Positions 58,980 through 64,000 of a DNA stretch of 64,000 nucleotides are shown here, piece after piece. A model generated the notes under the pieces. The model saw only the letters and a list, made by a program, of their open reading frames with translations. It was not told the DNA's origin and made no database searches. Where the stretch lies: positions 55,352-119,351 of IMG/VR virus record IMGVR_UViG_3300033146_005641, one strand, 5' to 3'. A program made the translations under genes and the position numbers. This DNA comes from a virus. Position 1 is the stretch's first letter. The number at the start of each line of letters is the position of its first letter.

Positions 58980-59282
58980 TTAATCCTTCATTAAATCTTC
59001 TAATAGATTTTTAGATTTATTTTCTTTTTTATCTTGTTTAATTTTAGATATGGTTTCTAGAGAATTGGGAATATTTTTATATAGTTCGTTAAAACTCTTA
59101 ACCCCATCCATAATAAGTTTAGATATTTCTATGTGTTCTTCTAGCCGAGAATAGTCTCCTGTAATTAGTTCTTCTACTAATTCTTTATCTAAAACTCTAT
59201 TGTGATCTATTATTTCTGTAATAGCACCTCTAGTTTTATCAAAGTCTTTTGAAAGACTTTTTAATAGTTCTTCTTTATTCAT
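58980..59282 (-). CDS. Probable terminase small subunit (gp16-like)
   Basis: 100 residues from the ATG at 59282 (AGGGG five bases upstream); a GTG two codons earlier is possible. DFDKTRGAITEIIDHNRVLD (~14-33), ELVEELITGDYSRLEEHIEI (~35-54), KLIMDGVKSFNELYKN. This fits the central coiled-coil pattern of gp16 (D...R.....II..N..L..L......D..R..E....L...M...N..L..L). It lacks the N- and C-terminal parts of T4 gp16 (164). The large subunit gp17 is outside the window. Confidence 0.6.
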   Translation of the reverse strand: MNKEELLKSLSKDFDKTRGAITEIIDHNRVLDKELVEELITGDYSRLEEHIEISKLIMDGVKSFNELYKNIPNSLETISKIKQDKKENKSKNLLEDLMKD

Positions 59283-59290
59283 ATACACCC

Positions 59291-61207
59291 CTATCTTCTA
59301 ATAAAACTTGTCATATTTCCGTTTCCGTCGTAATAAATATCTATTGTTAATTTAGTAACACCTTCACCATCTCTATAAACTATAAGTGAAACCCTGTTAT
59401 TAATATACGAGAACGTCGAATTATAGCCTGCAGGAATATCGGCAAAAGCTCCATATACTGCAGTTAAAATATTACCATCAATATCATAAGTAGCTGAAGT
59501 TATATCAGCATTTTCTAAAATTTTATCTAGTGGAGTCTCATCAATTCTTTCGATGTTTAGAGACTTCCATGTTCCATCAGGTAATTTTGTGTATTCTTGA
59601 TAGGGTCTAATAACTATAGATAATTCTGAATGAAAATTAACGGTAGTACCGTTAGATTGAAGATTAGTATATAAAGATTGCGCTGCGCTATTTTGCCATT
59701 CTATTTTATTGCCTAGAACGACCCCTTCAGAAAATAACAAATCAATACCATTAATAGTTATTACACTATTATCGTTTATAGAACTCATATCTTTAGGCCA
59801 TACAGAAGTAGAATACTCACGAACCTCTATTTTAGATATATCTGGAGTTCCTGATAAAACTATACCAGACTCGCCTTCTCCATCGCTTCCATCACTGTAT
59901 GTATATGAGACATCTTCCCCGCCGGTATAATCTGCTATATCTATTATATAATCAACTCCTGTACTTTGATAGGATTCTCTTAAATACTTATCACCCTCTC
60001 TTCCAAGATCAGATATATTATTAGGATTTTCTGTTCCTTTCCATACTATTTGTTGAATTGCTAGAGGAGTCCAAGAACTATTTTTTCTTACATATGATAT
60101 ATTATCTATAGGGGCGTCGTCTACTCCTCCTCCGAAATCCATTTCTACCCAATAGTTATCTCTCGCAGGCGTCTCTAGGCTTCCATCTCTAAGAATCCAT
60201 ATTTTTTCTCCACCACCTGTAGTAGTGTTACCATCATATAGTCCTACACTACCATCAACATTGTTTATATTACCATCAGTAACAAACATAGGTAGATTAT
60301 ATTGAAGATATACATCACCAGGTTCAAAATATCTTCCGGGAATACCGGGAATAGCAAAATCTGTCGGAGGAGGTAGAGTACCTTTATATAAAACTTGAAC
60401 TGCAGCTAGTTCAGCTACTCTAGCCCACCCTTTATTTTTTCTACCATAAACAAATCCATCTACAGGAGCGTCGTCAAAAGCATTATTATATTTATTTTCA
60501 AAATATTCCTTAGTTATTAATACTTTACCTGTTATATCAGCATCAATAACACTTTGTTGAAGATAGGGTGCTTTAATAGAGCCGTATTCCGCTCCACCTC
60601 CATCATAAACCTCAAAAGCATTTCTTCTATCAGAATCAGATGTTCCAATACCTACGGTAAATATTTTATATAATCCTGAATTATCACTACCATCATTAAG
60701 ATTAAATCTTCCGAAAGAAATAGTGTTTGGATTATCTATAACTATACTATCTCCGAAAGCAAATGAATTAGAGCCTGTTTTAAAAGTTCCGGTATTTTCT
60801 ACCCGGGAATTGCTACCACCTACAAATGAAGAAACACCACTAGAAATATTTTGAGTTCCTACTACGAATGAGTCAGGAGCCCCCGCTATATTGCTTTCTC
60901 CTGCTACGAAAGAATAATCACCACTAGAAGTATTTTCACTACCAAAGGCTACTGACGCTATTCCCGACGCCTTAGTATTATTACCACTCGATACTGTATA
61001 GTTTCCTGAGGCTATAGTATTCATACCGAAAGATACTGAATAAGATCCTATAGCCCCTTTAGCTTCTACTGCATCTGAAACATTGCTTGTAGAAAAATCT
61101 ATAGACTTCTGACCTATATCTCCGTATAAAGACGGATCTTTTCCTATTAGTCTCCATCCAAGATTTCCACCTTCAGATATTAATTCTAAACCTGTTGGTT
61201 CTGCCAT
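59291..61207 (-). CDS. Tail fibre/adhesin with YadA-like head repeats
   Basis: 638 residues. Residues ~50-145 are 14-residue repeats of the trimeric-autotransporter head type (SVSFGMNTIASG, TVSSGNNTKASG, SVAFGSENTSSG, SFVAGESNIAGA). A collar/stalk-like part follows (~170-240) and then two parallel modules (DDAPVDGFVYGRKNKGW / DDAPIDNISYVRKNSSW; ~244 and ~362), each followed by a Val-x-Trp/Tyr-Lys-Gly-Thr strand. It ends in a beta-rich C-terminal domain. It should be a trimeric fibre that touches the host surface. It is the longest late gene in this part and has its own late box. Confidence 0.85.
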   Translation of the reverse strand: MAEPTGLELISEGGNLGWRLIGKDPSLYGDIGQKSIDFSTSNVSDAVEAKGAIGSYSVSFGMNTIASGNYTVSSGNNTKASGIASVAFGSENTSSGDYSFVAGESNIAGAPDSFVVGTQNISSGVSSFVGGSNSRVENTGTFKTGSNSFAFGDSIVIDNPNTISFGRFNLNDGSDNSGLYKIFTVGIGTSDSDRRNAFEVYDGGGAEYGSIKAPYLQQSVIDADITGKVLITKEYFENKYNNAFDDAPVDGFVYGRKNKGWARVAELAAVQVLYKGTLPPPTDFAIPGIPGRYFEPGDVYLQYNLPMFVTDGNINNVDGSVGLYDGNTTTGGGEKIWILRDGSLETPARDNYWVEMDFGGGVDDAPIDNISYVRKNSSWTPLAIQQIVWKGTENPNNISDLGREGDKYLRESYQSTGVDYIIDIADYTGGEDVSYTYSDGSDGEGESGIVLSGTPDISKIEVREYSTSVWPKDMSSINDNSVITINGIDLLFSEGVVLGNKIEWQNSAAQSLYTNLQSNGTTVNFHSELSIVIRPYQEYTKLPDGTWKSLNIERIDETPLDKILENADITSATYDIDGNILTAVYGAFADIPAGYNSTFSYINNRVSLIVYRDGEGVTKLTIDIYYDGNGNMTSFIRR

Positions 61208-61653: not shown

Positions 61654-62484
61654 ATGATAGTAATGCTTTTAGGAAAAGCGGGAGCAGGTAAAACTACTAT
61701 TGCTAAAGAAATGGAGAAATACATTAAAGATTCCTTCGTAATAGACGGGGATGAATTAAGAGCAGAAACTAAAAATATTGATATTTCTCTTCAGGGTAGA
61801 GAGGCAAATATGCATCTAGGTTTAGGTCGAGCCAGAAGATTAGCTGATCTAGGATTTATAGTATTTGTATCTATGCAAGCACCTATTAAGGAAATTCGTG
61901 AACAATATTTAGGCGAAAACGATATTCAAATACTAATAGAAAACTTTGGCGAAAATCCTAAAGATGAGGCGGGATATAATAAAAATTTTTCTCCAGATTA
62001 TTCGGATGTGTATTTAAAGCAATCTCTTCAAGATTTTAATCCTGAAGATTTCTATAATAAAATATTTAAAAAAGTATTAGTACCTGCTAGATTTCAGGGT
62101 TTTCATAAAGGACATAAAGTAGTTTTAGAAGAGGCTAGGAGATTAAGTCCAAATATTACTGTAGCTTTAAGGGTTGATGAGAATGATATTATTGATCTAG
62201 AAAAAAATGTTAAATTATTAGAATCTAGAGGATATAGAGTCGTATTATCTCCTGATATTGATGATGATTGGACAAAATTTGCTAATAATTATGACATCTA
62301 TGTTCAAGGCAATCCTGTAGTTATTGAAAAATTTAAAAATTCGAAATGTAAATTGCATTTTGTACCTAGGTATGGAGATGTATCTGGAACTAATATTAGA
62401 AATAATATAAAATCAGGTAAAATACCTTTACATAATGTAGATGAAGATGTAGCTGAACTTATAAAAGAGGAAATTAATTGTTAA
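61654..62484 (+). CDS. Fusion of an APS-kinase-like domain and a HxGH nucleotidyltransferase
   Basis: 276 residues. N-terminal domain (~1-115): P-loop GKAGAGKTTIA (~7-17), FVIDGDELRAETKN (~28-41), GREANMHLGLGRARRLADLG (~48-67) and VFVSMQAPIKEIRE (~70-83), the pattern of adenylylsulfate kinase (CysC). C-terminal domain (~140-265): VPARFQGFHKGHKVVL (~143-158; HxGH) and GDVSGTNIRNNIKSGK (~245-260; SGTxIR), the pattern of NMN/APS-type adenylyltransferases. Kinase-first order recalls animal PAPS synthase, but the second domain is much smaller than ATP sulfurylase. A NAD-related NMNAT role is the main alternative. Confidence 0.8.
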   Translation: MIVMLLGKAGAGKTTIAKEMEKYIKDSFVIDGDELRAETKNIDISLQGREANMHLGLGRARRLADLGFIVFVSMQAPIKEIREQYLGENDIQILIENFGENPKDEAGYNKNFSPDYSDVYLKQSLQDFNPEDFYNKIFKKVLVPARFQGFHKGHKVVLEEARRLSPNITVALRVDENDIIDLEKNVKLLESRGYRVVLSPDIDDDWTKFANNYDIYVQGNPVVIEKFKNSKCKLHFVPRYGDVSGTNIRNNIKSGKIPLHNVDEDVAELIKEEINC

Positions 62485-62711
62485 TATTAAAATCTATAAT
62501 ATATAGAGTTCTTAGAATACTCTTACTTTTAATAGTTAGTTTTATTATTTTAGGAAATATTAATACGGCTTTAAGCATCTCACTTTTAGATGCTTTAATA
62601 GCTACAATATATTATTATTATTTTGATATAGTTTGGGAGAAGATAACACCCTCAATTAAAGAGTTAGGGATTAGGATAAAATATAGGAAATTTAATGAGC
62701 GAAAATTATGA
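62478..62711 (+). CDS. DUF2061-like small membrane protein
   Basis: 77 residues from a TTG that overlaps the upstream stop; GAGGAAATTAA precedes. Two hydrophobic stretches (VLRILLLLIVSFIILGNINT, ~11-30; LDALIATIYYYYFDIVWEKI, ~37-56) with R at the front and YxFxxVWE in the second match the DUF2061 pattern (R...WR......A....D......YY.HE..W). I recall DUF2061 proteins beside or fused to CysC in bacteria, which supports sulfate-related function of the cassette. Confidence 0.65.
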   Translation: MLILKSIIYRVLRILLLLIVSFIILGNINTALSISLLDALIATIYYYYFDIVWEKITPSIKELGIRIKYRKFNERKL

Positions 62712-62803
62712 ATAGAAGATGCTTAACACTAGTGAAGAAGTATATTTTTATAAACCTATTTTAATGGATTTTTAAGACGGAATTTTAATATATAAGGATT
62801 TAA

Positions 62804-63490
62804 ATGTATGTTATAAAACATAATGATGAATACAAAACCTTTTTACATATGGTAAAAACTGCAGGAATAAGTGTATCTAATGCTCTATACGATGCAGGAT
62901 ATCAGAAGTATGTAAATTTGAGACACATAGACATAAAATACCTACCAGATGAGTTTAAAAATTCTAAAAAATATATTATATTAAGAGAGCCACATGATTG
63001 GTATAAGAGTTTCTATAATTTTTTTATTAATGTAGAAGGATATTTATCTTTTATGTTAAATGATCCTAAAGATGATGGTTATATTTATCCTATCGGTTTA
63101 AATGAATTTATAAGAAGAAGTATTAATTTTAAAGATACTTTAGAAAAATTTCCTAATAAGGCTAGAGTATTTAATAATATATTACAAACTCAAGGTAATA
63201 TTCATTTTATTACCACATATTTCGATGAGCCTGTAAATTATAAAGATCCTAAAACTTTAGAACAATTTGATATGAGTCTTTTTGAGTGGTTTTGGAAACA
63301 CACAGGAGGTGATGAGGCTGATACTATTATACCTATGAATAAATTATATAAATTAGAGGATGAATTAGGTATTAAAATGCCACATCGTAATAAAACAAAA
63401 AATAAAACTGAAGAAGAAATCGATCCAGACGTTTTAAAACTAATTAAGAAAACACATAATAGATTTTATGATCTCTATGAAGAGAATTAA
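62804..63490 (+). CDS. Sulfotransferase-like protein
   Basis: 228 residues after ATAAGGATTTAA. FLHMVKTAGISVSNALYDAG (~13-32) matches the 5'-phosphosulfate-binding loop (KTAGTS) and KKYIILREPHDWYKSFYNFF (~55-74) the 3'-phosphate-binding motif (RdPv.w.yS.yn.f) of PAPS-dependent sulfotransferases. Length is normal for the family. Together with the APS-kinase-like fusion it would let the phage make PAPS and use it. The acceptor could be a surface glycan or a phage product. It lies directly beside fibre genes. Confidence 0.75.
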   Translation: MYVIKHNDEYKTFLHMVKTAGISVSNALYDAGYQKYVNLRHIDIKYLPDEFKNSKKYIILREPHDWYKSFYNFFINVEGYLSFMLNDPKDDGYIYPIGLNEFIRRSINFKDTLEKFPNKARVFNNILQTQGNIHFITTYFDEPVNYKDPKTLEQFDMSLFEWFWKHTGGDEADTIIPMNKLYKLEDELGIKMPHRNKTKNKTEEEIDPDVLKLIKKTHNRFYDLYEEN

Positions 63491-63712: not shown

Positions 63713-64000
63713 TTATACTGTAGTTCCTGTAGCATCTACCCACTGTGATCCATCCCACCAGATAGGTTTAGTTAAGTCTGTATCAAAATAGCTTTGACCT
63801 ACTATAGTTGTAGATGGTCTACTAGCTGTATCTCCTGAATTATTTACAGTAGATACTGTAGCTTCATCAGCAATAGGATAGCTTCTATTTTCTGTCCAAG
63901 CACTCCACGAAGAATCATATATCCTCATAAAAATAGAACCATCATTAAAAGTAGCAACCTGCATTACTCTCGAACCATCATTAAATACTTCTAAATAGAA
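63713..64000 (-). CDS. C-terminal part of a second tail fibre protein (partial)
   Basis: The frame is open from the window edge (96 residues seen). FYLEVFNDGSRVMQVATFND and FMRIYDSSWSAWTENRSYPI show the knob-like pattern with repeated FNDG and W.AW, as in fibre C-termini of many phages. The end, FDTDLTKPIWWDGSQWVDAT, is typical of phage fibre tips. The main part of the gene is to the right of the window. Confidence 0.75.
   Translation of the reverse strand, partial: FYLEVFNDGSRVMQVATFNDGSIFMRIYDSSWSAWTENRSYPIADEATVSTVNNSGDTASRPSTTIVGQSYFDTDLTKPIWWDGSQWVDATGTTV

Follow-up and report, generated by a model that had tools for sequence, protein, structure and literature searches.

A recurrent three-gene cassette of T4-like and other uncultured phages with a predicted role in sulfation

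The window, i.e. the whole stretch of 64,000 nucleotides analyzed here, is part of a 183,351-base IMG/VR record of a distant T4-like myovirus with a G+C content of 29%. T4-type families are matched in this record by the portal, the major head protein, the head protease, and proteins of the tail sheath and the baseplate. For the portal, identity amounts to 41% with Vibrio phages and to about 35% with Campylobacter phages. No tRNAs were found in the 64-kb window, and a promoter scan revealed no signal exceeding that of shuffled sequences. The cassette under study consists of three co-oriented genes on the plus strand, flanked by two fiber-like genes on the minus strand. All open reading frames named in a preliminary description of this DNA are present, with the three genes adjacent and placed between the two fiber genes as described there:

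59291..61207, minus strand: upstream fiber-like gene with weak Pfam matches to YadA-head/LbR-like repeats and a Fibritin_C-like match (context only)
61654-62484, plus strand: fusion gene, 276 aa, APS-kinase-like domain followed by a HIGH-type nucleotidyltransferase
61654..62064, plus strand: APS-kinase-like domain of the fusion (aa 1-137) with GKAGAGKT, DGDELR (D33, R36), R49, N52, and F112
62065..62484, plus strand: HIGH-type nucleotidyltransferase domain of the fusion (aa 138-276) with ARFQGFHKGH, QGNP, and SGTNIR; its proposed product is APS or a comparable nucleotide anhydride
62478-62711, plus strand: small membrane protein of the DUF2061 family (PF09834), 77 aa
62804-63490, plus strand: predicted sulfotransferase, 228 aa, with KTAGIS (aa 18) and REPHDWYKS (aa 61)
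63713..64000, minus strand: C-terminal end of the downstream fiber-like gene, matching the virion structural protein family phrog_20787 with E 9.6e-15 (context only)

The DUF2061 gene overlaps the fusion gene; its TTG start codon, preceded by AGAGGA, is located within the fusion gene at its 3' end. The sulfotransferase gene begins 92 bases past the DUF2061 gene and has an AAGGA of its own. Among relatives of the cassette, substitutions are found mostly at third codon positions, a bias which suggests purifying selection. The right-hand fiber gene crosses the edge of the window and encodes 730 aa in full; more virion-like genes follow beyond it. Just right of the window and downstream of the fiber cluster (L045:11934-13545), an adjacent pair of proteins of about 270 aa was observed, MKEKSRNISIYYYF... 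and MIINDDSDILLTFSW..., which look related to each other.

The N-terminal half of the fusion matched PF01583 with 38.0 bits (cutoff 21.1), and APS-kinase models headed the matches of this domain in Pfam, NCBIfam, and PDB. With the APS-kinase equivalog of NCBIfam the fusion scored 32, which is below the cutoff of 138.7. Both PF01583 and TIGR00455 were matched by all nine fusion relatives. An AlphaFold model computed from nine sequences reached a pLDDT of 86 and a pTM of 0.80; in a Foldseek search of PDB with the predicted fusion model, APS kinases came first, led by the kinase of human PAPSS1 (E 2.3e-7), and an archaeal APS kinase gave a target TM of up to 0.66. A better match to nucleoside kinases had been named beforehand as the result that would speak against a CysC-like kinase; APS kinases proved to be the better match, both by sequence and by fold. 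Identity as a nucleoside or polynucleotide kinase was rejected, polynucleotide kinases ranking below APS kinases among the fold matches.

The sulfur-activation motifs claimed in the preliminary description were recovered in the fusion and in the transferase and are conserved in the relatives; the motifs seen in the fusion are GKAGAGKT, DGDELR, GREAN, KD..GY..NF, HKGH, and SGT..R. In CysC of M. tuberculosis, the side chains contacting APS are K456, D480, R483, R497, and F576 (PMC4373884). Their counterparts K13, D33, R36, R49, and F112 are invariant in nine relatives, so that the pair of arginines binding the phosphosulfate (R36 and R49), the aspartate D33, and the P-loop lysine K13 are all kept. 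K103 may correspond to Lys562 of the M. tuberculosis enzyme, the alignment of the lid being ambiguous at this point. Of the two phenylalanines that sandwich the adenine, F112 is retained and position 44, the equivalent of F492, is occupied by Ile or Val; furthermore, the ATP lid is shortened. Because of these two deviations we name the domain APS-kinase-like and not CysC. Judged from its residues and its predicted fold, this half has APS as its likeliest substrate.

The C-terminal half matched TIGR00125 with 32.2 bits (cutoff 27.7) and, marginally, PF01467 with 21.9 (cutoff 21). Its HxGH and SGTxxR motifs are intact, with H151, H154, S244, and R249 invariant, and ARFQG[FMI]H[KR]GH is common to all nine intact fusion members. 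Profile searches gave near-equal matches to glycerol-3-phosphate cytidylyltransferase (1coz, 30.6 bits) and archaeal NMNAT (1f9a, 30.3 bits), and ATP sulfurylase is absent from the profile matches listed for this domain. PRK01153 was matched by 9/9 fusion relatives; the score with TIGR01527, the archaeal-type NMN adenylyltransferase, was 26.5 and thus well under the cutoff of 181.2. Sat-type ATP sulfurylase (PF01747) had no match in the fusion or across 12 records, and the family of CysD and of the PAPS reductase CysH had none in 11 records; we take CysD-type ATP sulfurylase to fall within PF01507. Therefore, APS should come either from the HIGH domain or from the host. Since the kinase half is of the APS type and a sulfotransferase gene comes next, APS would be the most economical product of the HIGH domain. 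Sulfate assimilation was considered as the purpose of the cassette and dismissed on account of the absent PAPS reductase; with Sat, CysD, and PAPS reductase all missing from the records, such a role is unlikely.

The small membrane protein matched PF09834 with 41.5 bits (cutoff 23.1). The preliminary description had placed proteins of this kind beside CysC, which could not be confirmed in cells; in the papers found, cellular DUF2061 genes are catalogued among iron-responsive or SsoR-linked genes (PMC3751524, PMC12442407). Pattern searches across 84,980 prokaryote genomes revealed no cellular relatives of the fusion or of the phage-type DUF2061 protein. DUF2061 genes on haloarchaeal plasmids show only weak similarity, and no sulfur genes lie close to the one that was inspected. 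Perhaps the protein serves in sulfate supply, which is a guess, or in membrane tethering.

For the transferase, the preliminary description had pointed to a sulfotransferase signature. The 5'-PSB motif KTAGIS (18) and the 3'-PB motif REPHDWYKS (61) are both kept, and equivalents, with variations, occur in all nine aligned transferases. The transferase of the window had no Pfam match; Sulfotransfer_1 (PF00685) was matched by four of eight aligned linked relatives (best E 4e-5), one transferase in record G005 exceeded the curated Pfam cutoff, and the window protein itself matched PHROG 3347 with E 1.3e-3. Its AlphaFold model reached a pLDDT of 85.5 and a pTM of 0.86. All 50 PDB fold matches listed are enzymes of the sulfotransferase fold, each of them weak (best E 0.019, TM about 0.3-0.4), and consist mainly of cytosolic SULTs together with heparan sulfate 6-O-, 2-O-, and 3-O-sulfotransferases. 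A transferase lacking the PAPS-binding residues would have spoken against the preliminary description; both PAPS-binding motifs are kept, and the fold matches point to sulfotransferases, weak as they are. A match to the phage sulfotransferase profile (E 4e-13) was also observed for gp173 of Vibrio phage Bakedbeans (L048:6001-6672), which is annotated as hypothetical.

Relatives of the fusion were found at eleven loci in viral contigs. Linkage was analyzed in those eight records where the fusion is intact and its neighbors can be read, namely the window's own, G001, and G003-G008. A DUF2061 gene is present in all eight, as one copy per record, within 2.8 kb of the fusion and on the same strand. 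A sulfotransferase gene lies within about 2 kb on the same strand in seven of the eight; in the remaining record, G006, fusion and DUF2061 are present and a sulfotransferase was not detectable. Combined Fisher P-values under random placement were 1.5e-7 for DUF2061 and 1.3e-4 for the sulfotransferase, both overstating the significance because accessory genes cluster near fibers and because the records are related and were found by similarity search. A scan starting from DUF2061 yielded eight loci, comprising seven of the same eight records and L037, where the HIGH half at the contig end is followed by DUF2061 and then by the transferase. A search of viral contigs with the transferases alone returned mainly the same records. 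Hence, the linkage of the cassette genes in related phages, which the preliminary description had left to be checked, recurs in searches starting from the fusion and from DUF2061, and it constitutes the strongest evidence for a module. In L037, an intein-like or homing-endonuclease-like insertion (CFDGDTVINTSEGYKNI...VHNSG; L037:587-2950) was noticed which appears to split the gene of a P-loop protein.

Across the relatives, identity to the window amounts to 61-77% for the fusion and to 24-57% for the sulfotransferases. The fusion closest to that of the window is found in L005 (77%), where the transferases are at most 30% identical; the closest transferase is found in L007 (57%), where the fusion is 61% identical. 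Conservation of the fusion together with divergence of the transferases suggests, therefore, that the donor enzyme stays and transferases are exchanged; in terms of function, the supply of the donor would be constant and the acceptor variable from cassette to cassette. In L001 and L005, the module is surrounded by genes for glycosyltransferases, by SDR genes, and by Stealth_CR2-like genes, and a radical-SAM gene lies near it in L003; in the window, L004, and L006-L008 no glycan-building genes are found near the cassette. The 140-kb record of L005 additionally contains a gene of the NAPRTase/NAMPT family (G005:C1:19156-19809, E 2.2e-37), which suggests NAD salvage.

Broken copies of the cassette exist as well. 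The transferase is broken in L004, and L009 and L010 are devoid of most of the HIGH domain. In L011 (6001-6743 of a 235-kb record), the cassette is reduced to the start of the kinase and the end of the transferase; this appears to be a sister phage which has lost the middle of the cassette, because it shares the equivalent of the window gene 58980-59288. Broken copies are as expected for an accessory module under changing selection.

Taken together, we consider it probable that these genes together constitute a sulfation module carried by the phage, in which the fusion acts as a compact PAPS synthetase, with a sugar as the likely acceptor. The HIGH half would convert ATP and sulfate to APS, which is the weakest step of the scheme and could be bypassed if the host supplies APS; the kinase half would phosphorylate the 3'-OH of APS to give PAPS; and the sulfotransferase would pass the sulfo group from PAPS on to the acceptor, most likely a sugar of the host surface or of the virion. 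The computations back the APS-kinase-like fold and residues, the sulfotransferase-like fold and motifs, and the recurrent co-inheritance. How APS is formed, which acceptor is used, what DUF2061 contributes, and how the phage benefits we infer from these. The preliminary description had the genes jointly making PAPS and transferring sulfate; its kinase and transferase classes are supported, and APS formation by the second domain is not supported by the matches found, this domain resembling NMNAT and cytidylyltransferases and not ATP sulfurylase. The acceptor is probably a glycan, because PAPS genes beside sulfotransferases mark clusters for sulfated polysaccharides in bacteria, as in the capsule cluster of Vibrio sp. 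KMM 8419 (PMC11641403). The position beside fiber genes is compatible with modification of a receptor or of fibers, which, as the preliminary description had suggested, might for example serve to block superinfection. As the same set of genes recurs in further uncultured phages, these viruses seem to bring their own sulfation machinery, directed at surface sugars or at their own fibers.

The HIGH domain might, as a tentative proposal, represent a third and independent kind of ATP sulfurylase derived from an NMNAT/cytidylyltransferase-like domain, which would make the fusion a compact and self-sufficient viral PAPS synthetase. Alternatively, the kinase half could convert APS of the host to PAPS, and the HIGH half could do something else, for example supply the same glycan with an activated CDP- or ADP-derivative of a phosphate, be it that of a sugar, of an alditol, or another one. 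Many bacteria make APS themselves, the HIGH profile fits cytidylyltransferase and NMNAT equally well and not ATP sulfurylase, and glycan-building genes adjoin the cassette in L001 and L005; this division of labor, however, leaves unexplained why HIGH domain and kinase are fused in every intact copy, even where no such genes are near, and we regard it as rather unlikely. A different donor altogether is suggested by Campylobacter jejuni, whose cytidine diphosphoramidate kinase is an APS-kinase homologue and whose pathway for this compound includes a gene of the glutamine-amidotransferase family. By analogy with this capsule, the fusion could make a 3'-phospho-nucleotide anhydride other than PAPS, the activated group of which would be transferred by the sulfotransferase-like enzyme. 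A precedent exists in the C. jejuni capsule pathway, where cytidine diphosphoramidate is phosphorylated by a kinase (Taylor and Raushel 2018, as cited in PMC6429109); the likeness of the HIGH domain to cytidylyltransferase and the Ile/Val in place of Phe at the adenine-stacking position fit as well. However, a glutamine-amidotransferase-family gene is absent from the eight records, the transferase resembles PAPS sulfotransferases, and both arginines that hold the phosphosulfate are retained, which makes another activated group very unlikely.

A HIGH adenylyltransferase and a P-loop 3'-kinase are combined in the known bifunctional enzymes CoA synthase, which yields CoA, and PAPS synthetase, which yields PAPS. 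The fusion could also belong to NAD or CoA metabolism; it would then link a kinase to an adenylyltransferase for NMN or phosphopantetheine, on the pattern of NadR or CoA synthase, and its neighbors would be there by chance or through clustering of accessory genes. The archaeal NMNAT match indeed spans nearly the whole HIGH domain, the PRK01153 matches extend to every relative, and one record, G005, carries the NAPRTase/NAMPT-family gene. Yet this gene is confined to one of eight records and lies about 88 kb away from the fusion, the NMNAT family score is far under its cutoff, the kinase half matches APS kinases and its listed Pfam and NCBIfam matches include neither a dephospho-CoA kinase nor a ribosylnicotinamide kinase model, and the fusion is repeatedly co-oriented with sulfotransferase and DUF2061 genes; a role in NAD or CoA metabolism is therefore highly improbable. 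Finally, the broken cassettes in L011, L004, L009, and L010 could indicate chance neighbors or decaying genes without any shared function. With linkage recurring from both search directions, active-site motifs intact, and substitutions biased to the third codon position, we give this hardly any credence. A sulfation module with the fusion as PAPS synthetase is the reading we retain.

Viral cysC genes (PMC9529941) and phage sulfotransferases (PHROG 3347) are each known already. No description of a phage cassette of this make-up was found in the open-access literature searched. The module is real and recurrent and potentially holds one new enzyme activity. Should the proposed function prove true, phages possess in mobile form the complete set of genes for sulfation, the donor enzyme being constant and the sulfotransferases exchangeable; this would offer them a route to alter the charge of host glycans or of their own fibers. 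The fusion would possibly represent a new class of sulfate-activating enzyme, and such a viral PAPS synthetase would permit sulfation of glycans of host or virion whatever the sulfur metabolism of the host. Furthermore, some viral cysC-like genes hitherto read as assimilation helpers may serve surface chemistry.

Among known phage systems, APS kinases are encoded by Challenger Deep viruses, where cysC was interpreted as serving sulfate assimilation (PMC9529941), by Ralstonia phage phiRSL1, and by the jumbo phage LR756500, and the cassette shares with them a phage-borne enzyme of this type. The LR756500 gene, the one such locus read, differs in being a canonical stand-alone CysC with no sulfotransferase or DUF2061 gene within 8 kb. 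The domain order of the fusion is also found in Stenotrophomonas phage DLP6 and in Casjensviridae (Suzuki, Clavibacter phage 33; PHROG 10255). The DLP6 protein is 24-26% identical to the window fusion, has a canonical GRYQPFHDGH motif, and is missing the Asn at the position of N52; neither sulfotransferase nor DUF2061 genes are nearby. With the cassette neighbors and some of the motifs missing, DLP6-type fusions were not adopted as the same system. A kinase-nucleotidyltransferase fusion distinct from that of the cassette, annotated only as kinase or hypothetical, was observed in phages of Stenotrophomonas, Xanthomonas, and Clavibacter (L013:5001-5732, L033:4992-5729, L049:3992-4729), with no sulfotransferase neighbors at these three loci.

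Bacterial glycan-sulfation clusters resemble the phage module in that PAPS-making genes adjoin a sulfotransferase and a membrane protein, and in some of the phages glycosyltransferases (L001, L005) or a radical-SAM gene (L003) are likewise nearby. Cluster VI of Campylobacter jejuni HS:19 has the order cysD, cysN, sulfate permease, cysC, sulfotransferase, glycosyltransferase, and radical-SAM sulfatase-maturating enzyme (PMC8743553). In contrast, the phage module is without CysDN, has DUF2061 in the place of the sulfate permease as its membrane protein, and is proposed to combine the activation and kinase activities in one fusion. In this last respect it resembles human PAPSS1, whose kinase was the best fold match, and PAPSS2: in both, an N-terminal APS kinase domain, APS-kinase-like in the phage, precedes a nucleotidyltransferase of the HIGH superfamily. 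The C-terminal domain is an ATP sulfurylase of the Sat family in PAPSS1/PAPSS2, whereas a compact NMNAT/cytidylyltransferase-like domain of about 139 aa is found in the phage protein.
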